A stretch of 55,347 bases of DNA from assembly GCF_017811755.1 (NCBI RefSeq), contig NZ_JADDJF010000021.1, positions 1 through 55,347 on the forward strand, written 5' to 3'. The position numbers and the translations under genes were made by a program. The notes beneath the pieces were generated by a model that worked only from the letters and a program-made list of their open reading frames with translations, did not search any database and was not told where the DNA came from. Shown piece by piece: positions 34,474 through 52,451 of this stretch. Source of the stretch: Pararhodobacter sp. SW119 (GTDB taxonomy: Bacteria > Pseudomonadota > Alphaproteobacteria > Rhodobacterales > Rhodobacteraceae). The number at the start of each line of letters is the position of its first letter. The stretch's first letter is position 1.

Positions 34474-35412
34474 TCAGGCGTTGACGGGGGTGACGGCGGG
34501 GCGGCCGGCGAGCATTTCGTGCAGGTTCTTGCGCTGCAGCACACCCATGTCGTTGCGGGTTTCCACCGTGGCGGTGCCGATATGCGGCAGCGGCAGGACG
34601 TTCTTCATCGACGCCAGGCGCGGGTCGACATGCGGTTCGTTGAGGAACACGTCGAGCGCGGCGGCGCGGATCACGCCGCCTTCCAGCGCGGCGATCAGCG
34701 CCTCCTCGTCCACGACGCTGCCGCGCGAGATGTTGACGAAGATCCCGTCCGGCCCCAGCGCGCGCAGCATCTCGGCGGTGACCAGCTTTTCGGTCTCGCG
34801 CCCGCCGGGGACGGCGACGATCAGGTCGTCGACGGCTTCGGCCAGCGCCATCGGGTCGTCGTGGTACGTCCAGCCCGGCGTGTCGCGGGGGCTGCGGGCG
34901 AAATAGTCGATGCGGCACTTGAAGGCGACCAGCCGGTCCGCGATCTCGCGCCCGATGCGCCCGAGGCCGAGGATGCCGACGCGCCGGCCCGAGACCTTGT
35001 GCGCCAAGGGCGGGCCCGAGCGCGCCCAGCTGCCGCTGCGCACGGCGTTGATGCCGGCTTCCATCTCGCGGCCGGCGGCGATCCACATGCCGACGGTCAG
35101 GTCGGCGACATCGTCGCTGAGCACGTCGGGCGTGTTGGTCACCACGATGCCGCGTTCGGTGGCGGAATCGACGTCGATGGAATCGTAACCGACCCCGTAT
35201 TTCGCGATAAGTCGAAGATTTGGCAGCAGGTCCATCATCTCGCCGGTGAACTGCAGGTGCCCCTTGTAGGCGACGCCGAGGATTTTCGCGCGGGTGGCTT
35301 CGCCGAGGGGCGGCAGCTGCTTCAGCGAGCGAATGGCGAGCGCGTCGAGTTCCGCGCTCAGCGCGGCCTCGTCCATGCCGTGATACGTGCCGATGGCCAT
35401 GATCTGCGTCAT
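34474..35412 (-). CDS. D-isomer-specific 2-hydroxyacid dehydrogenase
   Basis: This is a 312-aa NAD(P)-dependent reductase/dehydrogenase interconverting 2-oxo and D-2-hydroxy acids. The Rossmann motif is GRRVGILGLGRIGREIA (about residues 145-161). The catalytic Arg/Glu/His system is visible as VNISRGSVVDEEALI, LDVFLNEPHVDP and LPHIGTATVETR. It is the fifth and last gene of the minus-strand operon that begins with the TPP-dependent enzyme. Glyoxylate, hydroxypyruvate or a sugar-derived 2-oxoacid are candidate substrates, inferred from the context. Confidence 0.93.
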   Translation of the reverse strand: MTQIMAIGTYHGMDEAALSAELDALAIRSLKQLPPLGEATRAKILGVAYKGHLQFTGEMMDLLPNLRLIAKYGVGYDSIDVDSATERGIVVTNTPDVLSDDVADLTVGMWIAAGREMEAGINAVRSGSWARSGPPLAHKVSGRRVGILGLGRIGREIADRLVAFKCRIDYFARSPRDTPGWTYHDDPMALAEAVDDLIVAVPGGRETEKLVTAEMLRALGPDGIFVNISRGSVVDEEALIAALEGGVIRAAALDVFLNEPHVDPRLASMKNVLPLPHIGTATVETRNDMGVLQRKNLHEMLAGRPAVTPVNA

Positions 35413-35433
35413 CTGGGGTCCTTTCGGTGCGCC

Positions 35434-36186
35434 TCAGCCGCGGCCGACGAAGGGCATGTTGGTGGCCATGACGGTGACGAACTGCACGTTCGCGCCGTCG
35501 GGCAGGGTGGCCATGTGGTAGACGGTGTCGGCGACGGTGGCGACATCCATCATCGCCTCGGCGCGGATGGAGCCGTCGGCCTGCGTCACGCCACGGGCCA
35601 TGCGTTCGGCCATCTCGGTCACGGCGTTGCCGATGTCGATCTGCCCGCAGGCGATGCCAAAGGGGCGCCCGTCGAGCGAGACGGTCTTGGTGATCCCGGT
35701 CACCGCGTGTTTCGAGGCGGTGTAGGCGATGGAGCCGGGGCGCGGCGCATGGGCCGAGATCGAGCCGTTGTTGATGATCCGCCCGCCCTGCGGGTCCTGC
35801 GCGCGCATCTGCGCGAAGGCGGCGCGCGCGCAGTTGAAGACGCCGTTGACGTTGACATCGATCACCGCCCGAAACCCCTCGGGGTCGATCAGGTCGGGGG
35901 TGTCGGCGCCGAGGTTGCGACCGGCGTTGTTGAAGACCACGTCGATCCGGCCCCAGGTGGTGGCGGCCTTGGCAAAGGCCGCGTCGACGGCGGCGGCATC
36001 GGTCACGTCGCAGGGCAGGACGAGCGCGAGGTCCGACCCGCCGGCGGTTTCGGCCAGCGCGTCGGCGCGCCGGCCGACAAGGCCCACGCGCCAGCCGGCG
36101 TCAAGGAAACGCCGGGCGGTGGCGCGGCCGATGCCGCTTCCGGCGCCGGTGATGAGGATGGTTTGCGGCATGGGTTGCGCGCTCAT
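35434..36186 (-). CDS. SDR family NAD(P)-dependent oxidoreductase
   Basis: This is a 250-aa classical short-chain dehydrogenase. The cofactor motif is TGAGSGIGRATARRFLDAG (about 13-31), then NNAGRN, the catalytic Ser in NNGSISAHAP and the active-site YTASKHAV (Tyr and Lys). Glyceraldehyde, 3-hydroxyacid or similar small polar substrates are typical of near relatives, but specificity is not visible. The start overlaps the GST stop by four bases (ATGA), and it is 21 bp from the 2-hydroxyacid dehydrogenase. Confidence 0.93.
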   Translation of the reverse strand: MSAQPMPQTILITGAGSGIGRATARRFLDAGWRVGLVGRRADALAETAGGSDLALVLPCDVTDAAAVDAAFAKAATTWGRIDVVFNNAGRNLGADTPDLIDPEGFRAVIDVNVNGVFNCARAAFAQMRAQDPQGGRIINNGSISAHAPRPGSIAYTASKHAVTGITKTVSLDGRPFGIACGQIDIGNAVTEMAERMARGVTQADGSIRAEAMMDVATVADTVYHMATLPDGANVQFVTVMATNMPFVGRG

Positions 36187-36815
36187 TCGGGCATCGGGAT
36201 CGGGCCGGCATCCGCCGGGACCTGATAGCCGCGCTGCACCGCCGGGCGGTCGGCGAGTTCACGGTACCAGCGCAGGACGTTGGGAAATTCGCGCAGGTCG
36301 ACCTCGTGCCAGTCGTGGCGGGCGATCCAGGGAAAGCAGGCCATGTCGGCGATGGAATAGTCGGGGCCGAGGTAGTGCGAGTCGGTCAGGTGGCGGTCCA
36401 TGACTCCGTAGAGGCGCTGGGTTTCCTTGGCGAAGCGTTCCTCGGCCGGTTGCGACAGGCCCTTGTTGTTGCGCAGGAAGAAATGCGCCTGCCCCAGCAT
36501 CGGGCCGAGGCCGCCCATCTGCCACATCAGCCACTGCATGACCTGCGCGCGTGGCGCCGTCTCGGTCGGCAGGAAGCGGCCGGTGCGTTCGGCGAGGTAA
36601 ACCATGATCGCGCCGGATTCGAAGATCGAGAGGTCGGTGTCGTGGTCGACGATGGCGGGGATCTTGTTGTTGGGCGAGATCTTCAGGAAGTCGGGGGCGT
36701 TCTGTTCGCCCTTGCCGATATGGATCGGGATGGCCTTGTAGGGCAGCTCCAGTTCCTCGAGCATGATCGAGACCTTGCGGCCGTTGGGCGTGGTCCAGGT
36801 GTAGAGGTCGATCAT
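36183..36815 (-). CDS. Glutathione S-transferase family protein (Nu-class-like)
   Basis: This 210-aa GST has the N-terminal thioredoxin domain DLYTWTTPNGRKVSIMLEELELPY, whose TPNGRK motif is typical of the Nu class (YfcG/YghU, disulfide-bond reductase type). The GSH-site motif is NNKIPAIVDHD with FESGAIMVYLAE. The helical C-terminal domain has YSIADMACFPWIARH. The ATG at 36815 gives the family start. It lies 29 bp after the flavin dehydrogenase stop and overlaps the SDR start. Inferred role: protection from reactive aldehydes or thiol adducts made by the pathway. Confidence 0.92.
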   Translation of the reverse strand: MIDLYTWTTPNGRKVSIMLEELELPYKAIPIHIGKGEQNAPDFLKISPNNKIPAIVDHDTDLSIFESGAIMVYLAERTGRFLPTETAPRAQVMQWLMWQMGGLGPMLGQAHFFLRNNKGLSQPAEERFAKETQRLYGVMDRHLTDSHYLGPDYSIADMACFPWIARHDWHEVDLREFPNVLRWYRELADRPAVQRGYQVPADAGPIPMPE

Positions 36816-36844
36816 TCGCGTCTCCTTCGGGGTCAGCGCCGGGG

Positions 36845-38260
36845 TCAGCGCAGGGCCAGGACCTTGCCGGGGTTCATCAGCCCCAGCGGATCGATGGCGG
36901 TTTTCAGCACGTAGCACAGGTCGAGGGCCACGGGGTCCTTGTAGCGGGGCAGCTCGTCCCGCTTGGCGAGACCGATCCCGTGTTCGGCAGAGATGGAGCC
37001 GCCCATCGCGGCGACAAGGTCGTGGACGATCCGGTTGAAGCGGCCGTAATGCGCCAGGAAGTCGGCATCGGACATGGCATTGGGCCGGGTCAGGTTGAAG
37101 TGGATGTTGCCGTCGCCGAAATGGCCGAAGGGGCAGGCGCGCACGTCGGGCATATGCTGGGTGCAGGCGGCGACGCCGCGGGTGATGAAGTCGGCCACGC
37201 TGGAGACCGGCACGGAAACGTCGTGCTTGATCGAGGCGCCGGCGTGTTTCTGCATGTCGGACATGCTTTCGCGCAGCGACCAGAGGGCGGCGTTCTGCGC
37301 CTCGGAGCCCGCGATCACCGCGTCGGGGACAAGGTCGCGCTCCATCGCCTCGGCCAGGGCGGATTCGAGGCGTTCAGAGAGGTTGGCGTCGGGGTCGGGC
37401 GAGGAAAGCTCGATCAGCGCATAGGCGGGCCAGGGGGCGGCCAGCGGGTCGCGGGCGCCGGGCAGGTGGTCGAGGACCATCTGCAGGCCGAAGCGTTCGA
37501 GGTATTCGAACGCGACCAGCGTCTCGCCGCAGCGGCTGCGCAGGATGTCGAAAAGCGCCAGCGCATCGGCGGGGCCGGCGCAGGCGGCGAAGGCGGTGAC
37601 GGTGCGCGCGGGTTTGGGGAAAAGCTTCAGCACCGCGGCGGTGATGATGCCCAGCGTGCCCTCGGCCCCGATCAGCAGGTCCTTGAGCGCGTAGCCGGTA
37701 TTGTCCTTGCGCAGGCCGGAAAGGGCGTTCAGCACCTCGCCCGAGGGCAGAACGGCCTCCAGCCCCAGGGTCAGGTCGCGCATGGTGCCGTAGCGCAGGA
37801 CGGCGGTGCCGCCGGCGTTGGTCGAGAGGTTGCCGCCGATCTGCGCGGTCCCCTCGGAGGCGAGCGAGAGGGGGAAGAGGCGGTCGGCGTCGTCGGCGGC
37901 GGCCTGCACCTGGGCCAATGTGCAGCCGGCCTCGACCGTCATCGTGGCGTTGAGGGGATCGAGCGCGCGGATGCGGTTCATCCGGCCGGTGGCGATGACG
38001 ATGCCGCCCGACGGGACGCCCCCGCCGACCAGCCCGGTATTGCCGCCCTGCGGGACCATCGGCACGCGCGCCGCGGTGCAGAGGCGGACGACCGCGGCCA
38101 ACTGATCGGTCGAGGCGGGGCGGACGACGGCGTCGGCGGTGCCGGTCCAGCGCCCGCGATCCTCGCGCAGCGAGGGCGCGATTCGCTCGGCGTCGGTCCA
38201 GACATGGTCGTCGCCGACGGCCCGGCGCAGGTCGGCGATCAGGCTGGGCGGAACGGTCAC
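36845..38260 (-). CDS. FAD-binding oxidoreductase (GlcD/D-2-hydroxyacid dehydrogenase family)
   Basis: This 471-aa flavoenzyme oxidises a D-2-hydroxy acid and passes electrons to the respiratory chain or an electron carrier. The FAD_binding_4 domain (about 35-215) has MVPQGGNTGLVGGGVP, NLSTNAGGTAVLRYG and GAEGTLGIITAAVLKLFP. The C-terminal domain has the metal-site FGHFGDGNIHFNL and the end motif SISAEHGIGLAKRDEL, with GLMNPGKVL at the C-terminus. The GTG start at 38260 overlaps the TPP enzyme stop (GTGA), so the two are coupled. Lactate, glycolate, 2-hydroxyglutarate or an aldonate-like acid are all possible substrates. Confidence 0.93.
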   Translation of the reverse strand: MTVPPSLIADLRRAVGDDHVWTDAERIAPSLREDRGRWTGTADAVVRPASTDQLAAVVRLCTAARVPMVPQGGNTGLVGGGVPSGGIVIATGRMNRIRALDPLNATMTVEAGCTLAQVQAAADDADRLFPLSLASEGTAQIGGNLSTNAGGTAVLRYGTMRDLTLGLEAVLPSGEVLNALSGLRKDNTGYALKDLLIGAEGTLGIITAAVLKLFPKPARTVTAFAACAGPADALALFDILRSRCGETLVAFEYLERFGLQMVLDHLPGARDPLAAPWPAYALIELSSPDPDANLSERLESALAEAMERDLVPDAVIAGSEAQNAALWSLRESMSDMQKHAGASIKHDVSVPVSSVADFITRGVAACTQHMPDVRACPFGHFGDGNIHFNLTRPNAMSDADFLAHYGRFNRIVHDLVAAMGGSISAEHGIGLAKRDELPRYKDPVALDLCYVLKTAIDPLGLMNPGKVLALR

Positions 38261-39948
38261 GAGGCCTTCTGCGCGGCCTCGCGCAGGCGGGTGATGGTGG
38301 TGCGGGTCGAGATCTGCTCGGGGTCGGTGACCAGTTCCAGCACGGCGGGGCGGCCGGCAGCGCGAGCGCGGGCCAGGGCCGGGGCAAAATCCTCGGTCCG
38401 GGTGACGCGTTCGGCGTGGCAGCCGTAGCCCTCGGCCATCTTGCAGAAGTCGTGCGTCTTCAGCGTGGTGCCCGACAGCCGGCCGGGGTGGTCGCGTTCC
38501 TGGTGCATGCGGATGGTGCCGTAGATGCCGTTGTTGAAGAGAAGCACGATGGGCGCGACCCCGTATTGCGCGGCGGTGGCCAGTTCCTGCCCGCTCATCA
38601 TGAAGCCGCCGTCGCCGACCATCGACAGGACCAGCCGGTCGGGGTGGCGCACCGCGGCGGCGACCGCGGCGGGGACCGAATAGCCCATCGAGCCGCAGGT
38701 CGAGCCGACCTCGCGCCCCGGGCGGCCGAAGCGCAGGTAGCGCTGCGCCCAGCCGGTGTGGTTGCCCGCGTCCAGCGTCACGATCATGTCGGCGGGCAGG
38801 TCGTCGCGCAGCGCGCAGAAGGCCTGCCCCATGTCGAGCGTCCAGCCCTGATCCGCGGGCGCGGCGGTGTCGTCGAGGTATTCCTGCCGCAATGCCTCGG
38901 CCCAGTCCTGCCAGGCGGCGCGGCGGCCCAGGTCGCGCCCGGCCAGCGCTGCGGCGATCTGCGGCATGTCGGCGGCGAAGCCCAGGTCGGGGCCGTAGAC
39001 GCGGCCGATCTCGTCGGCGTCCTGATGGACATGGACCAGCGTCTGGCGGACCTGCGGCGGCTCCAGCGCGGTGTAGCCCTTGGTCGTCATTTCGCCCAGC
39101 CGGGCGCCGAGGACGACCAGCAGATCGGCCTCGGCCAGACGCTGGATCAGCTTGCCGCTGGTCGAGGTGCCGAAATCGCCGACATAGGCCGGCGAGCGGT
39201 TGTCGAGCGCGTCCTGCCGGCGGAATGAGGTGGTGACGGGCAGGCCGTTCTTTTCGGCGAACTGGCGGATGTCGGCGGCGGCGCGGTCGGTCCAGCCCGA
39301 CCCGCCAAGCAGCAGCAGCGGCCGTTCCGCCCCGGCCAGAAGGTCGGCCAGCTTGTCGACCGAGGCGGGCGAAACCTCGGCCCTTGTAGCGGTGTAGGGG
39401 CGGGCGTCGGCGACCTCGACCACGGTGGTCAGCATGTCCTCCGGCAGGGCGAGGACCACGGGGCCGGGTCGGCCCGAGGTGGCGACGCGGAAGGCGCGGG
39501 CGATGTATTCGGGCACGCGCTCGGGCACGTCGATCTGCGCCACCCACTTCGCCAGCCCGCCGAACATGGCGCGATAGTCGACTTCCTGAAACGCCTCGCG
39601 GTCGGTCATGTCGCGGGCGACCTGGCCGATGAGCAGGATCATCGGCGTGCTGTCCTGCTGGGCGATATGCACGCCGATGGAGGCGTGGCAGGCACCGGGG
39701 CCGCGGGTAACCATGCAGATGCCGGGCTTGCCGGTCAGCTTGCCGTAGGCTTCGGCCATGTTGGCGGCACCCGCTTCGTGCCGGGCGTTGTAGAGCTTGA
39801 AGCGGTTGGAAACGTCGTGCAGCGCATCCAGCACCTCAAGATAGCTTTCGCCGGGCACGCAGAAGGCGGTGTCGGCGCCGTGGATCAGAAGCTGGTCGAC
39901 CAGGACCTTGCCGGCGGTCCGCGCCGGAAGTGGGGTGGCGTCTGACAT
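38257..39948 (-). CDS. Thiamine-diphosphate-dependent enzyme (acetolactate synthase-like)
   Basis: This 563-aa ThDP enzyme has the three usual domains. The catalytic Glu lies in AFCVPGESYLEVLDAL near residue 40. The central domain follows (LADLLAGAERPLLLLGGSGW). The ThDP/metal motif is GDGGFMMSGQELATAAQYGV ending in NNGIYG. Relatives include acetolactate synthase, benzoylformate-type decarboxylases and sulfoacetaldehyde-type enzymes. No small regulatory IlvN subunit gene is present, which argues against a biosynthetic acetolactate synthase. It is first in the five-gene operon (AAGGAG site), and a GntR-type operator lies 48 bp upstream. Decarboxylation or carboligation of a 2-oxoacid from the pathway is inferred. 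Confidence 0.9.
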   Translation of the reverse strand: MSDATPLPARTAGKVLVDQLLIHGADTAFCVPGESYLEVLDALHDVSNRFKLYNARHEAGAANMAEAYGKLTGKPGICMVTRGPGACHASIGVHIAQQDSTPMILLIGQVARDMTDREAFQEVDYRAMFGGLAKWVAQIDVPERVPEYIARAFRVATSGRPGPVVLALPEDMLTTVVEVADARPYTATRAEVSPASVDKLADLLAGAERPLLLLGGSGWTDRAAADIRQFAEKNGLPVTTSFRRQDALDNRSPAYVGDFGTSTSGKLIQRLAEADLLVVLGARLGEMTTKGYTALEPPQVRQTLVHVHQDADEIGRVYGPDLGFAADMPQIAAALAGRDLGRRAAWQDWAEALRQEYLDDTAAPADQGWTLDMGQAFCALRDDLPADMIVTLDAGNHTGWAQRYLRFGRPGREVGSTCGSMGYSVPAAVAAAVRHPDRLVLSMVGDGGFMMSGQELATAAQYGVAPIVLLFNNGIYGTIRMHQERDHPGRLSGTTLKTHDFCKMAEGYGCHAERVTRTEDFAPALARARAAGRPAVLELVTDPEQISTRTTITRLREAAQKAS

Positions 39949-40016: not shown

Positions 40017-40067
40017 ATGTCGCCGGGGATGCATGATCCGCGCCGGGCCTTATGGGAGGGCATGCCG

Positions 40068-40862
40068 ATGCTGCTGGCCGCTTTGCGCAGGGTGCTGGAC
40101 ACCGAGGGCGCGCTGACCGTCGCGGTCAGCGGCGGGGTTGACAGCCTGACGCTGGCGGCGGCGGCCGCGGCGCTGCGGCCGGCGGGGGCGACGACGCTCT
40201 GCCATGCGCAATCGCCGGCGGTGCCGTCCGATGCGCTGGGGCGCGTGCAGGCGATGGCGGCGCGCACCGGGCTGGCGCTGCGGATCGTCGATGCCGGCGA
40301 GTTCGGCGATGCGCGATATCGCGCGAATCCGGTCAACCGCTGCTATTTCTGCAAGTCGAACCTTTACGCCACGCTGGCGGCGATGGGGGGATGCGTCGCC
40401 TCGGGCACCAACCTGGACGATCTGGGCGATTACCGGCCGGGGCTGGAGGCCGCGCGCGAACACGGCGTGCGCCATCCCTTTGTCGAGGCCGGTCTGCGCA
40501 AGGCCGATGTGCGGGCGCTGGCGCGGGAGTTGGGCCTGGGGGCGCTGGCCGAACTGCCGGCCTCGCCCTGCCTGTCGAGCCGGGTGCGCACCGGGCTGCG
40601 GATCGAACCCGACGCGCTGCGGCGCATCGACCGGATCGAGGCGGCGCTGCGCGACGAGTTTGGCGCGGTTCCGCTGCGCTGCCGGCAGGAGCCCGCGGGG
40701 CTGGCGATCGAACTGGACGCGGGCGTGCTGGACGGGCTGGGGGCGGCGGGGCGCGCGCGGGTGCAGGCGCTGGTCGCCGGGCAACTGGCGCGCGACGGGC
40801 TGGCGCAGGCAACGGTCCCGCTGCGCCCCTACCGGATGGGGAGCGCGTTCGTTCATGGCTGA
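40068..40862 (+). CDS. larE: LarE, ATP-dependent sulfur transferase for the Ni-pincer cofactor
   Basis: This 264-aa PP-loop enzyme adds sulfur to the pyridinium-3,5-bis-carboxylate mononucleotide made by LarB. The ATP-binding motif SGGVDSLTLA lies about 20 residues from the N-terminus. Further features are NRCYFCKSNLYATL and ASPCLSSRVRTG, where the Cys corresponds to the family's sulfur-donating or cluster Cys. ATG 40068 is chosen because GGAGG is eight bases upstream and it gives the usual N-terminal length; an in-frame ATG at 40017 abuts the operator and has no ribosome site. Its stop overlaps larB by eight bases. It is divergent from the TPP operon. Confidence 0.93.
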   Translation: MLLAALRRVLDTEGALTVAVSGGVDSLTLAAAAAALRPAGATTLCHAQSPAVPSDALGRVQAMAARTGLALRIVDAGEFGDARYRANPVNRCYFCKSNLYATLAAMGGCVASGTNLDDLGDYRPGLEAAREHGVRHPFVEAGLRKADVRALARELGLGALAELPASPCLSSRVRTGLRIEPDALRRIDRIEAALRDEFGAVPLRCRQEPAGLAIELDAGVLDGLGAAGRARVQALVAGQLARDGLAQATVPLRPYRMGSAFVHG

Positions 40863-41550
40863 CCCTTTCGGCGCGGTCCCGCACCTGACCTTCGACGCCG
40901 ACCGCGCCGCGCGGATCGGCCTGGAAGAGGTGGTGCTGGCCGAAAGCAAACCGCTGCCGCTGCTGGCCGGCCTGCTGGAAGCCGCGCAGCGCGAGGGGCG
41001 GCGGCTGCTGTGCACCCGCCTGACCGAGGCGCAGCACGCGGGCCTGCCGGAGACGGTGCGTGCGGCGATGGACTATTGCATGATCTCGCGCACCGGCTGG
41101 CTGGGGGCGCCGGCGGCGGTCGAGGGCGGCGCGGATGTGGTCGTGGTCACCGCCGGCACCTCGGACGCGGGGCCGGCGACCGAGGCGGTGCGCGTGCTGC
41201 GCTGGTCGGGGGTCGAGGGCGAACTGGTCGCCGATGTCGGCGTTGCCGGGCTGTGGCGCCTGCTGCGCTGGGCGGAGCGGTTGCAGGCGGCCGACGTTGT
41301 GATCGTCTGCGCCGGCATGGACGCGGCGCTGCCCAGCGTGGTCGCGGGGCTGGTCGGCGGCGTGGTGATCGCGGTGCCGACCTCGGCCGGGTACGGGGTC
41401 GCGGCGGGGGGGCGCACGGCGCTGAACGCGGCGCTGGCCAGCTGCGCGCCGGGCGTCGTGGTGGTCAATATCGACAACGGCTACGGCGCGGCCTGCGCGG
41501 CGCTGCGGGTGACCGCGCGCCTGCGCCGCCAGCACGGAGTCCCGCGATGA
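40855..41550 (+). CDS. larB: LarB, nicotinic acid adenine dinucleotide carboxylase/hydrolase
   Basis: This 231-aa enzyme starts synthesis of the nickel-pincer nucleotide by carboxylating nicotinic acid adenine dinucleotide and cleaving its phosphoanhydride. The fold is PurE-like: VVTAGTSDAGPATEAVRVL, VCAGMDAALPSVVAGLVGG, AVPTSAGYG, and the strongly conserved NAALASCAPGVVVVNIDNGYGAA with Cys197 at the position expected for substrate attachment. The ATG at 40855 overlaps larE, and its stop overlaps the GntR gene start by four bases (ATGA), so larE-larB-gntR are one coupled transcript. Confidence 0.94.
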   Translation: MADPFGAVPHLTFDADRAARIGLEEVVLAESKPLPLLAGLLEAAQREGRRLLCTRLTEAQHAGLPETVRAAMDYCMISRTGWLGAPAAVEGGADVVVVTAGTSDAGPATEAVRVLRWSGVEGELVADVGVAGLWRLLRWAERLQAADVVIVCAGMDAALPSVVAGLVGGVVIAVPTSAGYGVAAGGRTALNAALASCAPGVVVVNIDNGYGAACAALRVTARLRRQHGVPR

Positions 41551-42287
41551 GTCCGCCGCCCGACACCGACGACCCGCTGCTGAACGCCCCGATCCGCAAG
41601 CGCGAGACGCTCGCCGACCAGATCTACGGGCGCATCCTGGAACTGATCGCGGCGGGGCAGCTGGCCGAGGGCGAGAAGCTGCCGTCCGAACACCAGATCA
41701 GCGCGCGGTTCTCGGTCTCGCGCCCCGTGGTGCGCGAGGCACTGGCGCGGCTGCGCGACGACGGCATCGTGATCGCCCGCCACGGGATCGGCAGCTTCGT
41801 GCGCCGCCGCCCGCCGCAGGGGCTGATGCAGCACGCGCGCGCCGGCGATGTCGCGGGTCTGATGCGCTGCATGGAGGCGCGGATCGCGCTGGAGCCGGCG
41901 GCGGCGCGGTACGCTGCGCTGCGCGCCAACCCGCGCGACCTGGAGCGGATCGAGGCGGCGCTGCAGACGATGGAGACGACGATGCGCGCCCGCCAGCCGC
42001 TGCACGAGGCAGATTTCGATTTCCACATGGCGGTCGCCGTGGCCAGCGGCAACCAGGTCTTCTGCGACATGCTGAACGCGACGCGGCCGGTCATGCTGCA
42101 GGCGATCTCGGTCGCGCAGAAGCTGACCAGCGCCGGCACCAGCGAGCGGATCGAGGTGGTGCTGGCCGAGCATCGCCAGATCCTGGAGGCGATCCGCGGC
42201 CACGACGCCGAGGGCGCGGGCCTTCTGATGAGCTATCATCTGGTGCAGGCCCGCCAGCGCGTCACCGATCAGGAGCGCAAGACGTGA
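41547..42287 (+). CDS. GntR-family transcriptional regulator with FCD ligand domain
   Basis: This is a 246-aa regulator. The winged helix-turn-helix is at about 20-80 (LADQIYGRILELIAAG, EGEKLPSEHQISARFSVSRPVVREAL, VIARHGIGSFV). The all-helical FCD effector domain is at about 95-230, with the metal-binding pattern DFDFHMAVAVASGN, then EHRQILEAIRGHD and MSYHL. FCD regulators typically repress organic-acid or sugar-acid catabolic genes until a pathway intermediate binds. It is cotranscribed with larE-larB. The two CTTGTCAA-N5-TTTACAAG repeats in the window fit the size and symmetry of a GntR site and are its probable operators. Confidence 0.94.
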   Translation: MSPPPDTDDPLLNAPIRKRETLADQIYGRILELIAAGQLAEGEKLPSEHQISARFSVSRPVVREALARLRDDGIVIARHGIGSFVRRRPPQGLMQHARAGDVAGLMRCMEARIALEPAAARYAALRANPRDLERIEAALQTMETTMRARQPLHEADFDFHMAVAVASGNQVFCDMLNATRPVMLQAISVAQKLTSAGTSERIEVVLAEHRQILEAIRGHDAEGAGLLMSYHLVQARQRVTDQERKT

Positions 42288-45874: not shown

Positions 45875-46585
45875 ATGGACGAGACCCTGCGCGAGAAGCT
45901 GATGGGCGTGTCGGTGGCGACGCTGGCGACCGCGCTCTACAAGCGGGGCCTACGCAGCCAGGTGATCCAGTCGGTGCGGCCGGTGGCACCGAAGGGGCGC
46001 AACATGGTCGGCCCGGCCTATACCCTGCGCTACATCCCCGCGCGCGAGGACCGCAACGGGATCGAGGTCTTTCGCAACCCCGATCATCCGCAGCGGGTGG
46101 CGATGGAATCCTGCCCGGCCGGCCATGTTCTGGTCATGGACAGCCGCAAGGACGCGCGCGCGGCCTCGGCGGGGGATATCCTGATCACGCGACTGATGAT
46201 GCGTGGTGCGGCGGGCGTGGTCACCGATGGCGGCTTCCGCGACGCGATGGAGATCGGCGCGATGGATTTCCACGCCTACCATTCCCGCCCCTCCAGCCCG
46301 ACCAACCTGACCCTGCACGAGGCCTACGATCTGAACGTGCCCATCGGCTGCGGCGATGCCCCGGTCTTTCCCGGCGACATCCTGGTCGGCGACGACGACT
46401 GCGTGATCGTCATCCCGCACGAGATCGCCGAGGAGGTGGCGGATGAGGCGGTCGAGATGACCGTCTACGAGGATTTCGTGATCGAGCAGGTGCGCAGCGG
46501 CGCGGCGATCATCGGCCTCTATCCCGGGACCAAGCCCGAACATGCCGAGGCCTTCGCCCGCTGGCGCAAGGAACGAGGCCGCTGA
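45875..46585 (+). CDS. RraA-like protein (HMG/CHA aldolase-type fold)
   Basis: This is a 236-aa protein of the RraA/4-hydroxy-4-methyl-2-oxoglutarate aldolase superfamily. Features are VSVATLATALYKRGLR, GPAYTLRYIPARED, GDILITRLMMRGAAGVVTDGGFRD (the GxxxxxxRxxGxxGxVxDGxxRD-like region with Arg and Asp for substrate and metal) and GDILVGDDDCVIVIP. In catabolic operons these act as pyruvate-releasing aldolases or oxaloacetate-decarboxylase-like enzymes; the RNase-regulator role is unlikely. It has a strong AAGGAGAA site and is 11 bp from the LarA-family gene. Confidence 0.9.
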   Translation: MDETLREKLMGVSVATLATALYKRGLRSQVIQSVRPVAPKGRNMVGPAYTLRYIPAREDRNGIEVFRNPDHPQRVAMESCPAGHVLVMDSRKDARAASAGDILITRLMMRGAAGVVTDGGFRDAMEIGAMDFHAYHSRPSSPTNLTLHEAYDLNVPIGCGDAPVFPGDILVGDDDCVIVIPHEIAEEVADEAVEMTVYEDFVIEQVRSGAAIIGLYPGTKPEHAEAFARWRKERGR

Positions 46586-46596: not shown

Positions 46597-47925
46597 ATGG
46601 CCGACACCCTTCCCAACTACGTCCGGCTGGTCGCGGACACGCCGCTGCCCCGCATCGCGCTTTGCCGGCAGCGGTTCGACGCGGCGCGGATCGACGACCC
46701 GGCCGCCGCAGTGGCGGACGCGATGGGCGCGCCCTGCGTCGCGGAGCGCGTGAAGCCCGGGATGCGCATCGCGGTGACGGCAGGCAGCCGGGGGCTGGCG
46801 AGTTTCCCCGAATTGCTGACCGCGATCATCCGCGAGTTGCAGGCACGCGGGGCGCAGCCCTTCGTGGTGCCGTCAATGGGCAGCCACGGCGGCGCGACCG
46901 CCGAAGGGCAGCGCGCGGTCCTGGCCAAGCTGGGCGTCACCGAGGACGTGATCGGCTGCCCCATCGAAAGCAGCATGGAAACGGTCGAGGTGGGCCGGCT
47001 GGAGAACGGCATGTCGGTGCAGATGGACCGGCTGGCGCAGGAGGCCGACGGGATCGTGCTCTTCAACCGGATCAAGCCGCACACCTCGTTCCGGGCGCCG
47101 CTGGAAAGCGGGGTGGCGAAGATGCTGGCGATCGGGCTGGGCAAGCAGTCCGGCGCCGAGGCCTGCCATTCGCGCGGGATCGACCGGGTCGGCGAGTTCG
47201 TGGCGCTGATGGCGCGGATGAAGTTGGAACGCTGCAAGGTCCTCTTCGCCATCGGCACGATCGAGAATGCCTATGACCAGCTGTCGCGCGTCGTCGTGCT
47301 GGACCGCGACGGCATGATGGACGCCGAGGTGCCGCTGCTGCGCGAGGCGATGGCGAACATGCCGCGCCTGCCGCTGGGCGACCCGGCGGCGCCGCTGGCG
47401 AACGGGCCGCTGGACGTGCTCGTGGTCGATGAGATCGGCAAGGAATTCTCCGGCACCGGGATGGACCCCAACATCACCGGCCGCTTTTCCTCGCCGCGGA
47501 TGACCGGCGGGCCCGAGATCTCGCGGCTGGCGGTGCTGGGACTGTCCGAGCGTACCGCCGGCAACGGCAATGGTGCCGCGCGGGCCGACGTGGTGACGCA
47601 GCGCCTGGCCGACGCCTTCGACCGCGAGCCGGTCTATGCCAACGCGCTGACCTCGACCGTGCTGACGCAGGCGGCGCTGCCGATGGTGATGCCCGACGAC
47701 CGTACGGCGATCCAGACCGTCGTGCGCACCTGCCTGGCCGAGGATCCGGCGCGCCCGCGACTGCTTCGCATCGCGAACACGCTTCAGCTGGAATGGCTCT
47801 ACGCGTCCGAGGCGATGCTGCCGGAACTGGCGGCGCGCCCGGGCATCGAGGTCGTGGGCGAGTTGGAGGAACTGCGGTTCGAGGGCGGGCGGCTGGTCAA
47901 TCCCTGGCCCGGGCATGATGCATGA
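46597..47925 (+). CDS. LarA-family nickel-pincer racemase/epimerase, substrate unknown
   Basis: This 442-aa protein belongs to the lactate racemase (DUF2088) superfamily. Candidate cofactor and catalytic residues are His97 (SMGSHGGAT), His162 (RIKPHTSF), Lys175 (SGVAKMLAIG, the expected covalent pincer Lys) and His191 (EACHSRG, the expected Ni ligand). Lys175-to-His191 spacing (16) equals that of lactate racemase, but His162-to-Lys175 is 13 rather than 10, so this is a different clade. Genes for LarB, LarC and LarE are all nearby, supporting a nickel-dependent enzyme. With an aldonate dehydratase in the operon, a sugar-acid C2 epimerase is the best inference. It overlaps larC by four bases. 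Confidence 0.88.
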   Translation: MADTLPNYVRLVADTPLPRIALCRQRFDAARIDDPAAAVADAMGAPCVAERVKPGMRIAVTAGSRGLASFPELLTAIIRELQARGAQPFVVPSMGSHGGATAEGQRAVLAKLGVTEDVIGCPIESSMETVEVGRLENGMSVQMDRLAQEADGIVLFNRIKPHTSFRAPLESGVAKMLAIGLGKQSGAEACHSRGIDRVGEFVALMARMKLERCKVLFAIGTIENAYDQLSRVVVLDRDGMMDAEVPLLREAMANMPRLPLGDPAAPLANGPLDVLVVDEIGKEFSGTGMDPNITGRFSSPRMTGGPEISRLAVLGLSERTAGNGNGAARADVVTQRLADAFDREPVYANALTSTVLTQAALPMVMPDDRTAIQTVVRTCLAEDPARPRLLRIANTLQLEWLYASEAMLPELAARPGIEVVGELEELRFEGGRLVNPWPGHDA

Positions 47926-49121
47926 GCGGCGACGGGGCGGGGGGCGGCGACGGGCTGCACCTGCATTTCGACCCGCAGGGCGGGGTGGCGGGCGACATGT
48001 TCGTGGCGGCGCTGCTGCATGCGCGGCCCGACCTGATCGACCGGGTGCTGGCCGATGTCGCCGCCGTCTTGCCCGAGGCCGCGGGGCGCGCGGAGTTGTC
48101 GACCGTGCAGAAGGGCGGGATCGACAGCCGCGGCTTCCGACTGGTGCGCGGCCCGGCCGAGCCCCGGCGCGGGCACGAGACGACCTATCTGGGCATGCGC
48201 GAGACGATCGAGGGCGCGGCCCTGTCGCCGGGCACCGCCCGCCACGCCAGCGCGATCCTGCACCGCATCGCCGAGGCGGAAAGCGCGATCCATGCCATGC
48301 CCATTGAGCGCGTGCATTTTCACGAGATCGCGGACTGGGACGCGCTGATGGATGTCACTGCCGCCGGCAGTCTTGCCGCGGCGCTGGAAGGCGCAAGCTA
48401 TTCGCTCGCGCCCCTGCCGCTGGGCGGTGGGCAGGTGAAGACGGCGCATGGACTTCTGGCGGTGCCGGCGCCCGCGACGCTGCGCATTCTCGAAGGGTTC
48501 GACTGGGTCGACGACGGGATCGGCGGCGAGCGGGTCACGCCGACCGGCGCCGCCATCCTCGCGCATGTGCTGGACGGCCCGCCCGAGGCGCGGCGCCCGC
48601 CGGGGCGGCTGCTGGCGACGGGCTACGGCGCCGGAACGCGGGACCTGCCCGGCATCGCCAATGTTCTGCGCGTCACGCTGACCGAAAGTCGTGCTGCGGA
48701 CCCGGACTACGCGGCGGACGACCGCGTGCTGGTGCTGGTCTGCGACGTGGACGACATGACGGGCGAGGAGATCGCGGTCGCCGCCGACCACCTGCGCCGG
48801 GTGGAGGGGGTGCTGGATGTGACGACCCTGGCCCTTTCGGGCAAGAAGGGCCGGCCGGCGACGCGGTTCGAACTGCTCGCCCGGCCCGAGGCCCGCGCGC
48901 GCTGCACCGAGGCGGTCTTCGCGCAGACCTCGACCATCGGGCTGCGGTGGGGCGAGATGGCGCGGGTCGTCCTGCACCGACGCATGGATGCCGACGCCGG
49001 TGGCCGCCCCGTCAAGGTGGTCGCCCGACCCGGCGGCAGGCACAGCGCCAAGGTCGAAAGCGACGCGCTGGCGGACCTGCCTACGCTGGCGGAACGGCGG
49101 CGGGCGGCGCGGTCGGACTGA
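47922..49121 (+). CDS. larC: LarC, CTP-dependent nickel insertase for the pincer cofactor
   Basis: This 399-aa protein inserts nickel into the LarB/LarE-made organic cofactor. The family motifs are HFDPQGGVAGDMFVAALL (about 15-32), HFHEIADWDALMDV (132-145), TPTGAAILAH and a C-terminal RNA-binding-like half with DVDDMTGEEIAVAADHLR and GRPATRFELL. In the lactobacillus prototype larC is split and joined by ribosomal frameshifting; here it is one continuous reading frame. ATGA overlap couples it to the LarA-family gene. The His-rich stretch typical of some LarC N-terminal halves is absent, and residues 1-10 are Gly/Asp-rich. Confidence 0.94.
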   Translation: MSGDGAGGGDGLHLHFDPQGGVAGDMFVAALLHARPDLIDRVLADVAAVLPEAAGRAELSTVQKGGIDSRGFRLVRGPAEPRRGHETTYLGMRETIEGAALSPGTARHASAILHRIAEAESAIHAMPIERVHFHEIADWDALMDVTAAGSLAAALEGASYSLAPLPLGGGQVKTAHGLLAVPAPATLRILEGFDWVDDGIGGERVTPTGAAILAHVLDGPPEARRPPGRLLATGYGAGTRDLPGIANVLRVTLTESRAADPDYAADDRVLVLVCDVDDMTGEEIAVAADHLRRVEGVLDVTTLALSGKKGRPATRFELLARPEARARCTEAVFAQTSTIGLRWGEMARVVLHRRMDADAGGRPVKVVARPGGRHSAKVESDALADLPTLAERRRAARSD

Positions 49122-49530: not shown

Positions 49531-51450
49531 TCAGGTCCCGGTTCCGCCGGTCCGGCGCGCGTCTTCCGGCGGGGCGGTGTCGCTGGTCGGCACCGGCGTC
49601 ATCTCGTCCTCGACGATCTGGTCCGGCTCGCGGCTGTTGAGCAGCGCCGCCAGCGCCCCCAACGCGATCCCGACCGTGTCGGTGATCAGTCCCGGGTTGA
49701 TCATCGTGAACGCCGCCGCGATCAGCAACCCGCGCACGATCAGCCCGGCGGGTCGCATCAGGTAGCCGGCCAGCCCCGCCGCGAGGAAGGTCACCCCGAT
49801 CCCTGCGGTGATCGCCGTGGTGATCACCTGCTGCCAGGTCCCGATCATCAAGAGCGACGGGCCGAAGACGAACATGAAGGGAATGATGTACCCCGTCAGC
49901 CCCAGCCGCACCGCGATGAACGAGGTGCTCATCACCGGACTTCGCGCGATGCCGCAGGCCGCATAGGCGGCGATGGCCACCGGTGGTGTGATCGACGACA
50001 GGATCGCGTAGTAGAAGACGAACATGTGCGCCGCCGGGATCGGCACGCCCAACCGCACCAGCGCCGGCACCAGCAGGGCGACCTGCACGATATAGGCCGG
50101 CGTCGTCGGCATCCCCATGCCCAGGATGATGCCGGCCATCATGGTCAGGACCAGGGCCAGGAGCAGCGTATGCCCCGCCGCCGTGCGCACAAGCCCGGTG
50201 AAGGTCAGCCCCAGCCCGGTCTGCGCGATCACCCCGATCACGATGCCGGCGCTGGCGCAGGCCAGCGCGACGGTGACCGAGTTGACGGCGCCGGCCCTAA
50301 GCGCGTCGATCAGCTTCTCGATCGAGAATTCCCCGCGCGTGGTCTTGCGCAGCAGGACGACCGGCACGACCGACAGGATCCCGGCCAGCGCCGAGAAGGG
50401 GGCGGAATAGCCGCTCATCAGCGCGCCGATGATGATGACGAGCGGCAGGAAGAGGTGCCCCTCGTTCACCAGGACAGAACCCAGCCGGGGCAGGTCGGCG
50501 CGCGGAATGCCCTTCATGCCGCGCTTGCGCGCCTCGAAATGGACGGCAAGGAAGACGGCCAGGAAATAGAGAAGTGCGGGCAGCAGCGCGTAGCCCGCCA
50601 CGCTCAGGTAGCTGACCCCCATGAACTCGGCCATGACGAAGGCGGCGGCGCCCATGATCGGCGGCATGATCTGCCCGCCGGTGGAGGCGACGGCCTCGAC
50701 CGCGCCGGCGAACTGCGGGCGGTAGCCGATGCGTTTCATCAGCGGGATGGTGAAGGTGCCGGTGGTCATCACGTTCGCCACCGCCGAGCCCGAGACCGAC
50801 CCGAAGAGACCGGAGGAGAGGACCGCCACCTTCGCCGGCCCGCCCGCCGTGTGGCCGGTCAGAGCCAGCGCGAAGTCCATGAAGAGCTTGCCCACGCCGA
50901 AGCGTTCGGCCAGCGCGCCGAAGATCACGAAGAGCACCACGTAGGTGGCCGAGACCTGCGCCGGGATACCGAACAGCGCGTCGGTCGTCATGTACTGGTA
51001 TTCCAGCAAGCGCATGATGTCGGCGCCCTGGATGAAGATCTGGTAGGACAGGAAGGCCATCGCGGTGATCGGCAGGATGATCCCGATCGCGCGGCGCGTC
51101 GCCTCCAGCACGGTGACGATCATCATCACCGCGAAGACCTGGTCCATCACCGACACCGGCCCGACATAGGCCATGCGGGTGTTGAAATAGGTCTGGTTGA
51201 TGATCGGATAGCTCGCCGCGGCCAGCGCCGCGATCATGAACAGGATGTCGATGATCCCCGGCGGCTTGCCCTCGCGTTTAGCGGTCATCGGCAGGGCGAG
51301 GTAGGCCAGCGCCAGCGCGAAACCGAAGTGGGTCGCCCGTAGCGTGAAGGCATTGGGCGGGCCGTACCACGCGACGTATATGTGAAACAGACTCATCGAT
51401 ACCGCGACGGCGGTCGTCAGGTATCGCAGCCAGACGCTCACTGCCAGCAT
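49531..51450 (-). CDS. TRAP transporter fused permease (TAXI type, 4TM-12TM)
   Basis: This 639-aa membrane protein combines the small Q-like and large M-like TRAP subunits. The N-terminal helices (to about residue 120) are the Q-like part. The DctM-like core follows, with GSVSGSAVANVMTTGTFTIPLMKRIGY, VEAVASTGGQIMPPIMGAAAF and GIILGMGMPTTPAYIVQVALL. It drives uptake with an ion gradient, likely sodium. The C-terminal 40 residues are hydrophilic and Asp/Thr/Pro-rich. It is cotranscribed with the TAXI binding protein (68-bp gap) and shares a GntR-type operator with the TPP/lar divergent promoter. Confidence 0.94.
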   Translation of the reverse strand: MLAVSVWLRYLTTAVAVSMSLFHIYVAWYGPPNAFTLRATHFGFALALAYLALPMTAKREGKPPGIIDILFMIAALAAASYPIINQTYFNTRMAYVGPVSVMDQVFAVMMIVTVLEATRRAIGIILPITAMAFLSYQIFIQGADIMRLLEYQYMTTDALFGIPAQVSATYVVLFVIFGALAERFGVGKLFMDFALALTGHTAGGPAKVAVLSSGLFGSVSGSAVANVMTTGTFTIPLMKRIGYRPQFAGAVEAVASTGGQIMPPIMGAAAFVMAEFMGVSYLSVAGYALLPALLYFLAVFLAVHFEARKRGMKGIPRADLPRLGSVLVNEGHLFLPLVIIIGALMSGYSAPFSALAGILSVVPVVLLRKTTRGEFSIEKLIDALRAGAVNSVTVALACASAGIVIGVIAQTGLGLTFTGLVRTAAGHTLLLALVLTMMAGIILGMGMPTTPAYIVQVALLVPALVRLGVPIPAAHMFVFYYAILSSITPPVAIAAYAACGIARSPVMSTSFIAVRLGLTGYIIPFMFVFGPSLLMIGTWQQVITTAITAGIGVTFLAAGLAGYLMRPAGLIVRGLLIAAAFTMINPGLITDTVGIALGALAALLNSREPDQIVEDEMTPVPTSDTAPPEDARRTGGTGT

Positions 51451-51518
51451 CGCGCGTATCCGATCAATAGGGGAAGGTCTGGGGCTGACCCGAGGGTCAG
51501 CCCGCAGGTTGGATCAGC

Positions 51519-52451
51519 TTACTCGCTGGCGTGATCTTCGTAGAAGGCGCGCGCGGCGTCATGCAGAGGCACGCCCCCTTCATCCGACATCGACTCGATC
51601 GTCATGTCGGCCATCACCGCGTTGATCGACGCCAGATCTTCCTTGTTGTTCCAGATCTTGTCGAGCAGCGTGCTGACGACGTTGTCGTCCAGGTCGCAGC
51701 GGCCGATCAGCTGGGTCTGGTAGCCGACGACGATCACGTCCTCGTCCTGGCCGGGATAGCTGCCGCCGGGAACAATGAGCGAGGCGTAGCCCGGATTGAT
51801 CTCCTGCTGCATCTGGTTGATGAACTCCTCGGTCAGCGGCACGAGCGTGATCCGCGTGGAGTTGGCGAGATCCATGATCGACGAGGCCGGGACCGTCGTG
51901 CCCAGCGTGAAGACCTCGGCGTTGCCGTCCTGCAGCAGTCCGACCGCGTCGGAATAGGACACGTAGTCGACGCCGCGCATGTCATCGTAGCTGAGCCCGG
52001 CGGTCTGCAGGACTGCGCGCGTCACCTGTTCGGCGGTGTTGCCGACCGGCTGGGTGACGATGCGCTTGCCGTCCAGATCCTCGATCGACTGCACGCCGCT
52101 GGCTGCGGTTGCGACGATCTGGAAGTACTGCGGATAGAGGGTGCCGAGCAGGCAGATGTTGTCGGCGCGCCCCTCGAAGGGTTCGCGCCCCTCCAGCGCG
52201 TCGACGACCGAGATCGAGTTGCCGAACGCCAGGTCGGCCTGACCGCCCTGCACGCCCTGGGCATTGGCGACGCCGCCACCGGGCAGGACTTGTGCGCCGA
52301 TGCCTTCGTCGCCGAGCATGGCCTGCATCGCCCCGCCCAGCGGGTACCAGGCACCGCCCTGCGGGCCGGTCATGATCCGCAGTTGCTGTGCATCCGCCTG
52401 TCCAACGGTCGCCGCCACGGCAACCAGTCCCGTCAAGATAATTCCACGCAT
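51519..52451 (-). CDS. TAXI-family TRAP transporter solute-binding protein
   Basis: This is a 310-aa periplasmic binding protein. The signal peptide is MRGIILTGLVAVAATVGQADA. The mature part starts QQLRIMTGPQGGAWYPLGGAMQ, the TAXI family signature, and has LPGGGVANAQGVQGGQADLAFGNS and IVTQPVGNTAEQVTRAVL. The ATG at 52451 has a GGGAGG site. TAXI proteins bind organic and amino acids, among others. The operator 147 bp upstream matches that of the lar/TPP operons, so the natural ligand is probably the acid that the nickel-dependent pathway degrades. Confidence 0.94.
   Translation of the reverse strand: MRGIILTGLVAVAATVGQADAQQLRIMTGPQGGAWYPLGGAMQAMLGDEGIGAQVLPGGGVANAQGVQGGQADLAFGNSISVVDALEGREPFEGRADNICLLGTLYPQYFQIVATAASGVQSIEDLDGKRIVTQPVGNTAEQVTRAVLQTAGLSYDDMRGVDYVSYSDAVGLLQDGNAEVFTLGTTVPASSIMDLANSTRITLVPLTEEFINQMQQEINPGYASLIVPGGSYPGQDEDVIVVGYQTQLIGRCDLDDNVVSTLLDKIWNNKEDLASINAVMADMTIESMSDEGGVPLHDAARAFYEDHASE

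Follow-up and report, generated by a model that had tools for sequence, protein, structure and literature searches.

Gene content of the island

In the window, which is the whole 55 347-nucleotide stretch of Pararhodobacter sp. SW119 DNA that was analysed, Pfam and NCBIfam scans place larE, larB, a larA-like gene and larC together with 12 other genes between positions 34474 and 52451, which mark the outer limits of the two outermost genes of the island. All of the genes named in a preliminary description of this DNA are present. Judged by its reading frames and family matches, the island is a real gene set and chance is excluded, because the frames are open over their full length, most scores exceed the curated cut-offs and the same genes are found together in other genera. 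The genes are listed below, with percentages giving the sequence identity to the corresponding genes of L069, a cluster in a genome of the same family.

34474..35412, − strand: D-isomer-specific 2-hydroxyacid dehydrogenase (Pfam 2-Hacid_dh_C, 145.8 bits; 59%)
35434..36186, − strand: short-chain dehydrogenase/reductase, SDR (Pfam adh_short, 158.9 bits; 77%)
36183..36815, − strand: GST family protein, nearest to GSH-dependent disulfide-bond oxidoreductase (Pfam GST_N; PRK13972, 214 bits, below the cut-off of 332; 78%)
36845..38260, − strand: FAD-linked oxidase of the GlcD/D-2-hydroxyglutarate dehydrogenase kind (Pfam FAD-oxidase_C, 168.8 bits; top NCBIfam match GlcD, 257.4 bits, below the cut-off of 567.9; 79%)
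38257..39948, − strand: TPP enzyme, PRK08199 subfamily (NF006052, 806 bits, cut-off 539; 79%)
40017..40862, + strand: LarE, sulfur transferase of NPN synthesis (TIGR00268, 235.9 bits, cut-off 150)
40855..41550, + strand: LarB, nickel-pincer cofactor biosynthesis (NF033503, 231 bits, cut-off 175)
about 41547..42287, + strand: GntR/FCD transcription regulator (Pfam FCD and GntR, scanned from 41550; 82%)
42302..43057, − strand: HpcH/HpaI-type aldolase (Pfam, 159.9 bits; TIGR02311, 265.4 bits, below the cut-off of 368.8; 72%)
43201..44931, + strand: IlvD/Edd-type dehydratase (NF009559, 1112 bits, cut-off 882; C-terminus ...EPDIF)
44950..45849, + strand: DapA-superfamily enzyme, apparently a KdgD-like dehydratase rather than an aldolase (best NCBIfam match KdgD-type PRK03620, 130.5 bits, below the cut-off of 278)
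45875..46585, + strand: RraA-like putative aldolase/decarboxylase (PRK08245, 329 bits, cut-off 208; 85%)
46597..47925, + strand: LarA-family nickel-pincer isomerase, group 22 (NF052515, 481.7 bits, cut-off 400)
47922..49121, + strand: LarC, nickel insertion, both domains in one frame (TIGR00299 for LarC1, 162.3 bits, cut-off 90; NF052512 for LarC2, 96 bits, cut-off 50)
49531..51450, − strand: TRAP transporter fused permease (TIGR02123, 635.7 bits, cut-off 320.65; 80%)
51519..52451, − strand: TAXI-type TRAP solute-binding protein (TIGR02122, 212.2 bits, cut-off 84.35, scanned to 52547; 67%)

The LarE/LarB, LarB/GntR and LarA/LarC frames overlap by a few bases; larB starts within the end of larE and the ATG of the GntR gene overlaps the larB stop codon. 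Relative to L069, the TAXI protein is more diverged than the permease. The top PDB matches of the FAD-linked oxidase are 3pm9 (a putative oxidoreductase) and 6lpn (D-2-hydroxyglutarate dehydrogenase), and the nearest solved structures for the TPP enzyme include acetolactate synthases. The TPP enzyme was also considered as a glyoxylate carboligase, because aldolase cleavage could yield glycolaldehyde; this assignment was set aside, as the protein reads RHEAGAA, with Glu at the position where glyoxylate carboligase has Val, and NCBIfam places it in PRK08199.

The LarA-like protein and the cofactor genes

The LarA-like protein matches the NCBIfam entry 'nickel pincer cofactor-dependent isomerase, group 22' and also Pfam Lar_N (36.9 bits, cut-off 23.3). 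It is the single Lar_N match in its own assembly, which likewise contains a single LarC (Ni_insertion) match, and both are in the island. A phmmer search of the PDB gave a best E value of 0.51 and a family profile run against PDB sequences gave no match at 0.01, so the equivalences with LarA were set by motif and spacing and not by structure alignment. The equivalents of the NPN-binding residues R75, K184 and H200 (R65, K175 and H191) and of the catalytic H174 (H162) are invariant in 21 of 21 aligned rows, and that of the catalytic H108 (H97) is present in 20 of the 21, with Tyr in L062. The spacing between the Lys and His is 16 residues, the same as in LarA; the stretch from the second catalytic His to the NPN Lys is longer by three residues. 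The invariant K282 is a candidate equivalent of K298, placed independently of a residue alignment to LarA. At the position of D72 (R65 minus 3) the window protein has Ala, and none of the 21 group-22 rows has an acidic residue there. In the available parts of the respective sources, D72 is described as catalytic (PMC7583248) and the matching Asp as ribose-associated (PMC12611868). By alignment, the missing Asp sets the protein apart from the characterised LarA members; the curated group-22 match stands.

An AlphaFold model, built with 11 close sequences, has a mean pLDDT of 53.6, with the C-terminal domain mostly below 50. The top 17 PDB matches of a fold search with this low-confidence model are all LarA-family chains (E values of 5.6e-10 to 5.3e-7), with TM-scores of ∼0.4 that were used for fold membership only, and the protein is predicted on this basis to have the LarA fold. 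Its likeness to the superfamily thus comprises the fold match, the NPN-binding and catalytic residues and the presence of larB, larC and larE in the same island. The nearest members in function are the D-gluconate 2-epimerases GntE1 and GntE2, for which the available part of PMC7583248 reports aldonate substrates and a signature in which the second catalytic His is followed by Glu and next by Val or Ser; this signature is absent from the window protein, which has Thr-Ser after H162. The portion of the same paper that was available includes a Table 1 without a group-22 entry. The group numbering of nine LarA proteins is not given in the available part of PMC11770544. Asn-type LarA proteins of Blautia and Streptococcus, as presented in the available part of PMC12611868, are similarly LarA-like, with no assigned substrate and carbohydrate-type neighbourhoods, but lack the second catalytic His that the window protein retains. 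No reaction assigned to group 22 was found in the available parts of the openly licensed PMC papers.

LarE has no Pfam match and was identified by NCBIfam. It contains SGGVDS, a CxxC motif (CYFC) and, further on, a Cys in SPCLSS, and this pattern (SGGxDS with CxxC-C) is reported for [4Fe-4S] LarE in the available part of PMC9283937; by motif, the protein is predicted to be of the [4Fe-4S] kind.

The dehydratase and associated enzymes

The best PDB matches of the IlvD/Edd protein are 8ej0 and 9evv, that is, PuDHT and the L-arabinonate dehydratase of R. leguminosarum. A C-terminal His is reported, in the part of PMC11316719 available, to be fully conserved in the sugar-acid dehydratase subfamily, whereas the window protein ends in Phe. 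Of 36 aligned rows, 26 have an identity of at least 68%, and their last residue is Phe in 19, Tyr in three and Asn in four; among the ten more distant rows, four end in His and six do not. The automatic label 'L-arabinonate dehydratase' is doubtful for the island protein, because its clade lacks the C-terminal His, and the comparison suggests that the name is unsafe for an IlvD clade that is widespread in the bacterial family of the host.

The DapA-type protein contains the motifs GNTGEFY, YLR and SGLIN, comparable with the TGEF, Tyr-x-Arg and Ser/Asn features given for KdgD in the available part of PMC13398020; much of the same pattern is present in 3d0c and 3e96, which are named only as dihydrodipicolinate synthase. 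The FKIE motif of the KdaD type is absent and the protein reads VKWAT, as read without alignment to KdaD from a source available in part. By these motifs, a dehydratase of the KdgD kind seems likelier than an aldolase. An aldehyde dehydrogenase (ALDH) gene is present in 12 of 20 DapA-centred stretches and absent from this cluster. Another contig of the same genome carries an ALDH gene orthologous to that of the relatives, at 70% identity and in an uninterrupted frame; the idea that it is a pseudogene was rejected, since the flagged TGA is the last of 505 codons, where the frame naturally stops, and the frame is intact.

The island resembles two groups of known routes. The non-phosphorylative sugar-acid pathways combine an IlvD-type pentonate dehydratase, a DapA-type dehydratase and a semialdehyde dehydrogenase (PMC6336799, available in part), and the order IlvD-DapA-ALDH occurs in the relatives L069, L071 and L076. 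The island departs from them in an IlvD protein that ends in Phe and not His, in a DapA protein with KdgD-like motifs and no FKIE, and in the addition of TPP, FAD, GST, HpaI and RraA proteins, the TAXI-TRAP importer and the lar genes. With respect to the galactarate/glucarate pathway (GarD, GarL and KdgD), the HpaI protein is 43% identical to Escherichia coli GarL, the best NCBIfam match of the DapA protein is of the KdgD type, and a UxaA protein of relatives matches UxaA (35%) and the compared part of GarD (32%), although the GarL-, KdgD- and UxaA-type scores are all below the curated cut-offs. The Pararhodobacter genome itself contains no UxaA/GarD-family match, the island dehydratase being of the IlvD type. 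A sulfolactate route (UxaA-like sulfo-lyase and racemase) was considered as well, SuyAB being placed in the superfamily of the UxaA-like protein in the literature available in part; it was set aside, as no sulfite gene occurs among the annotated Sulfitobacter neighbours and the genome under study lacks a UxaA-family match.

Recurrence and a cluster without lar genes

The gene set was found in other genomes, including those of other genera. In Sulfitobacter, the neighbourhood runs through TAXI-TRAP, GntR, LarE, LarB, GntR, NIPSNAP, HADH and ALDH to HpaI, IlvD, DapA, RraA, GntR, UxaA, LarA and LarC. The LarA gene of Sporomusa adjoins a split UxaA, and the order in Paenibacillus is uxaC-larA-SDR-larE-larB-larC. 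L069 contains 12 of the 12 non-lar genes in the same order, at 59–85% identity, and no lar genes; its genome has no Lar_N match anywhere (genome-wide absence was checked in G222, G384, G161, G263 and G239 only). Since all 12 other genes occur there without them, the nickel genes are, as far as gene content tells, an add-on to the pathway, and the expectation that the pathway is nickel-dependent as such is contradicted. Of 39 DapA-positive genomes of the family, 35 lack a group-22 LarA (at most six candidates were scored per genome), so the pathway does not need LarA; the enzyme seems to be an accessory through which a wider range of stereochemistry is accepted.

Of the 39 loci in the LarA tree, 19 have a sugar-acid dehydratase of the IlvD/Edd or UxaA/GarD type near the group-22 LarA. 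The fetched stretches of the other 20 contain no IlvD or UxaA; included here is each of the 11 from the class's other families, and three of these are shorter than 11 kb. No dehydratase and no larB, larC or larE was recognised in the 11. The 38 neighbourhoods fetched besides the window span 4.8 to 29 kb, and a missing neighbour says little where the stretch is short. In eight of 21 genomes an IlvD gene is found no more than 10 kb from LarA, against 0.41 expected (22 genomes have a group-22 match; G618 was left out).

In the two trees, the IlvD of L057 groups with that of the window and its LarA falls in another LarA clade; by this comparison, the IlvD/LarA pairings differ between the trees, beyond common descent. 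LarA linkage is also clustered on the IlvD tree (four changes, against a shuffled mean of 11.2), so part of the pairing is inherited. The outgroup rows L004b and L012b are labelled LarA-negative in this count although they lie ∼7–8 kb from LarA; without both, there are three changes. LarA-negative here means no LarA in the fetched stretch (20 kb at most): the genomes of L077, L078 and L079, so labelled, carry a group-22 LarA elsewhere, and the stretches of L073, L079 and L084 meet contig ends. The partial IlvD of L008 was omitted from the tree by the coverage filter. Loci L002–L012 were chosen by similarity to the window LarA and are thus biased towards its clade, and L007 and L058 are from the same species.

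Proposed function

Gene content, families, residues, recurrence, the lar-less version and the IlvD/LarA pairings are read from the sequences; all reactions, the order in which they follow, the imported compound and the class of substrate we infer. We propose, with a probability of about 0.58, that the island is a sugar-acid transport and catabolism cluster with an added NPN cassette, in which LarA inverts C2 and gives the epimer that IlvD dehydrates. The cluster probably degrades a sugar acid, and the nickel enzyme perhaps lets a second form of the same acid be used. The TAXI-TRAP system would import a polyhydroxy (sugar) acid; LarB, LarE and LarC would make the NPN cofactor, with which the group-22 LarA would invert C2 of the imported acid by proton-coupled hydride transfer. 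The IlvD/Edd enzyme would dehydrate the accepted epimer to a 2-keto-3-deoxy acid, which would pass to central metabolism either through the KdgD-like DapA protein and the ALDH encoded elsewhere in the genome or through the HpaI/RraA aldolases. Relatives that lack lar genes would feed the dehydratable epimer straight into the pathway, and LarA would widen the range of usable stereoisomers.

The preliminary description had already suggested that the nickel enzyme supplies the dehydratable epimer, and the dehydratases near LarA, the IlvD co-location and the pairing in L057 lend this part some support. Its suggestion that three aldolases handle the products is tentative: the DapA-type protein is more likely a dehydratase, and the HpaI, RraA, TPP, FAD, GST and SDR proteins may or may not act on one compound. 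Its remark that no described pathway has this gene set agrees with searches of the main texts of openly licensed PMC papers.

LarA might instead serve the FAD oxidase and the TPP enzyme, as a 2-hydroxyacid racemase followed by a D-specific flavin dehydrogenase and a 2-oxoacid decarboxylase or lyase, an order in the style of the mandelate pathway. Such a route would suit the nearest named PDB match of the oxidase, the membership of the TPP enzyme in the acetolactate-synthase/decarboxylase superfamily and the loci of Salipiger and Halovulum, where LarA occurs with TPP and TAXI-TRAP genes (and in Salipiger with an FAD oxidase) and the stretch contains no dehydratase. We consider it unlikely, however, as L069 has the FAD oxidase and TPP genes without LarA, and L036, L037, L041, L043, L044, L045 and Sporomusa have LarA with IlvD or UxaA and without the TPP/FAD pair. 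We would give still less weight to an incidental association, in which two or more independent catabolic operons lie side by side and rely on one transporter, with a LarA substrate unrelated to IlvD. The gene content around group-22 LarA is indeed highly variable: L042 has a gluconokinase together with an SDR resembling gluconate 5-dehydrogenase, L038 has a 2-dehydro-3-deoxy-6-phosphogalactonate aldolase, and the 11 stretches from other families have no recognised dehydratase, larB, larC or larE, but the co-location is far above the IlvD gene density of the genomes and the IlvD/LarA combinations in the two trees are not explained by common descent.

It is also conceivable, though quite improbable, that the group-22 protein carries out another hydride-transfer reaction and not C2 inversion, or is not loaded with NPN. 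Its remoteness from characterised LarA in the PDB searches and the missing acidic residue at the D72 position are in keeping with this, as is the proposal, in the available part of PMC7583248, that groups without the catalytic residues might perform other hydride-mediated reactions. Conservation of both catalytic His residues and of the NPN-holding Lys and His argues against it, as do larB, larE and larC in the same island, LarC having no second copy in the assembly.

A place in metabolism is known for few nickel-pincer enzymes. Under the preferred reading of C2 inversion ahead of the dehydratase, the same 12 genes with and without lar genes form a natural comparison and a direct test of the nickel step, and this comparison points to group 22 as sugar-acid epimerases. 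More tentatively, and at less than even odds, group-22 LarA with LarB, LarC and LarE may be a portable nickel cassette, joined on more than one occasion to Fe–S sugar-acid dehydratase pathways (IlvD/Edd, UxaA), making the wrong C2 epimer usable; here it would serve an IlvD clade without a terminal His, on an acid without a described catabolic pathway.

No substrate is named because the hints conflict: uxaC in Paenibacillus, the gluconokinase in L042 and the galactonate-type aldolase in L038 hint at a hexonate, whereas the GarL and KdgD likenesses hint at an aldarate. One COG2721 (UxaA-family) enzyme is reported to be a D-arabinonate dehydratase in the available part of PMC6336799.

Gene content

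The segment at 34474–52451 holds sixteen genes, and checking with curated models and Pfam upheld the gene set and arrangement given in the preliminary description. Three members are located as follows.

43201–44931: IlvD/Edd-type dehydratase (IlvD)
46597–47925 (+): LarA-family protein (LarA)
51519–52451: TAXI-type binding protein

Scores exceed the NCBIfam cut-offs for LarE, LarB, LarC, the LarA-family protein, the IlvD/Edd dehydratase, the RraA-like protein, the TPP enzyme and the two transporter components. Pfam firmly assigns the 2-hydroxyacid dehydrogenase, SDR, GST, FAD oxidase, GntR, HpaI and DapA proteins, with none above cut-off among the NCBIfam matches listed (at most 25 each for SDR and GntR). 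Starts and stops overlap in larE/larB, larB/gntR and larA/larC, which suggests co-transcription. The assembly contains one match to Lar_N and one to LarC, both within the window; on this evidence, the nickel-pincer nucleotide (NPN) cofactor is thus made for a single enzyme, the window LarA. Elsewhere in the window, a proline racemase family gene (23517–25232; 433 bits) lies within an over-long open frame, its true start probably being downstream, and the protein at 53986–54699 has two DUF1428-matched stretches.

Distribution

LarA matches the NCBIfam group 22 model with 481.7 bits (cut-off 400); we infer that the name 'group 22' follows the numbering of PMC7583248. Of 394 genomes in the family sample, 11 carry group 22, as do 11 of 385 in the class sample (own genome counted in each) and 3 of 398 in the phylum sample (own genome and one family-sample genome counted). 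The gene set recurs elsewhere, for example on a Sulfitobacter dubius plasmid and at L057, a locus from another class.

Gene content of two loci in other genomes
S. dubius plasmid, in order: TRAP permease, TAXI, GntR, LarE, LarB, GntR, NIPSNAP, HADH, ALDH, HpaI, IlvD, DapA, RraA, GntR, UxaA, LarA, LarC
L057, matches: ALDH, RraA, IlvD, HpaI, LarB, LarE, LarC, GntR, LarA, HADH, TAXI, TRAP, TPP, FAD oxidase, SDR, UxaA

Among eleven named relatives, picked by protein similarity, the fetched stretch carries IlvD in seven and IlvD or UxaA in nine. LarA adjoins a split UxaA in Sporomusa, and Paenibacillus has the run uxaC–larA–SDR–larE–larB–larC. On an archaeal Salinigranum plasmid (L062, 9971–13082), a group-22-like LarA gene, whose product has Tyr where the first catalytic His would stand, is followed by an SDR gene, a cupin gene and the nickel regulator nikR. 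Searches of openly licensed papers, covering their main text, yielded no description of this gene set, in keeping with the earlier remark that no described pathway is known to have it. Around a close LarA relative in genome G152 (L042, 1041–10616), the dehydratase cluster is replaced by TRAP genes, a gluconokinase gene and an SDR resembling gluconate 5-dehydrogenase.

The cluster without nickel genes

DapA orthologues (E below 1e-70) are present in 39 of 394 family genomes, four of which (the window's own genome G000, G152, G300 and G383, all among the family sample's 11 group-22 genomes) have a group-22 LarA; the other 35 have none. In stretch L069 of a same-family genome, G384, each of the window's twelve non-lar genes has a counterpart at 59–85% identity, and the gene order is conserved. 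Within L069, LarA has no match at E 1 and LarB, LarC and LarE match only at E 0.076 or weaker, and a genome-wide Lar_N search gave no match in G384, G222 (same genus), G161, G263 or G239. Compared with L069, the window has larE–larB in the TPP/GntR gap and larA–larC in the RraA/TRAP gap, and is without the ALDH gene that L069 has between DapA and RraA; an ALDH orthologue (70%, intact frame) lies on a separate contig of the own genome (G000:C57:64464–65978; L087 9465–10979). The nickel genes are therefore judged an accessory, since the twelve-gene set also occurs on its own. The binding proteins (L069 14737–15762 versus the window) are 67% identical and the permeases 80%, a greater divergence that might fit a different imported epimer.

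Relation of LarA to the dehydratase

In our preferred reading, to which we assign a probability of about 0.58 and whose reaction steps are all inferred, the group-22 LarA would be an NPN-dependent C2 epimerase that inverts C2 of an acid, and the product would feed the IlvD dehydratase. The preliminary proposal of a nickel epimerase feeding a dehydratase survives as the best available reading, but with an optional nickel step, given the lar-less cluster of G384.

A group-22 gene is present in 22 genomes, and linkage was counted in 21 of them, which together hold 78 IlvD/Edd matches in 79.6 Mb. IlvD lies within 10 kb of LarA in 8 of the 21, own included, versus 0.41 expected by chance (7 of 20 with the own genome left out, binomial 7e-8), and UxaA in 3 of 21 versus 0.14 expected; because the genomes are related, these figures overstate independence. 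Counting against the link, neither IlvD nor UxaA was matched at any of 11 loci from the class's other families (stretch fetched), where larB, larC and larE also had no match, and both dehydratases are absent from the fetched stretch at 20 of 39 LarA-tree loci. On the IlvD tree (33 rows), LarA linkage changes at least four times, the starred branches forcing four and bootstrap trees agreeing, or three times without the two outgroup rows and still three without uncertain-label rows, gain and loss being indistinguishable in these counts. Shuffling the label gives a mean of 11.2 changes; the label is therefore clustered, and much of the linkage is inherited. The window IlvD belongs to a starred group of 11 rows, the other ten coming from stretches without LarA. 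On the LarA tree (quick method), the L057 LarA groups with those of loci L041, L043, L044 and L045, which adjoin a different IlvD clade, and the L057 IlvD groups with the window IlvD. Thus more than one LarA–IlvD combination occurs, and this speaks for the two enzymes working together.

The nickel enzyme and LarE

LarA scores 36.9 bits against Pfam Lar_N, its best match among PDB sequences has E 0.51, and a profile search of PDB sequences with its family gave no match at 0.01; by sequence, it is remote from characterised LarA proteins. Equivalents of R75, K184, H200 and H174 (characterised LarA numbering, matched by motif and spacing) are invariant in all 21 aligned group-22 rows, the H108 equivalent is present in 20, and the K-to-H spacing is 16, as in LarA. 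Unlike LarA, group 22 is non-acidic at the D72 position (21/21 rows) and has three extra residues in the segment that separates the second catalytic His from the NPN lysine. Directly after that His, the window protein has the small polar pair Thr-Ser, whereas the published residue roles place two Phe there in lactate racemases and Glu-Val/Ser in gluconate epimerases. The predicted structure is of low confidence (mean pLDDT 53.6); in a PDB fold search with it, the top 17 hits were LarA-family chains, with TM-scores of ∼0.4. The window LarE has SGGVDS and CxxC plus a third Cys, the same pattern that PMC9283937 reports (SGGxDS for the first motif) for the [4Fe-4S] LarE type keeping its cysteine sulfur.

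Substrate indications

IlvD passes the NCBIfam L-arabinonate dehydratase model, but its clade is without the C-terminal histidine reported in PMC11316719 as fully conserved in sugar-acid dehydratases: the 26 of 36 rows at ≥68% identity have Phe (19), Tyr (3) or Asn (4) as their last residue. His ends four of the ten more distant rows, and the six without it are the LarA-linked ones. In the same source, PuDHT with a C-terminal Phe has its preference shifted towards shorter acids, so the window IlvD may act on a substrate other than L-arabinonate. The window DapA lacks the KdaD glutamate motif and has KdgD-like motifs, scoring below the KdgD cut-off, and the HpaI protein shares 43% identity with E. 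coli GarL; together, the KdgD-like and GarL-like proteins hint at an aldarate. Other group-22 members have uxaC, gluconokinase or galactonate-type genes in their neighbourhood, which hint at hexonates.
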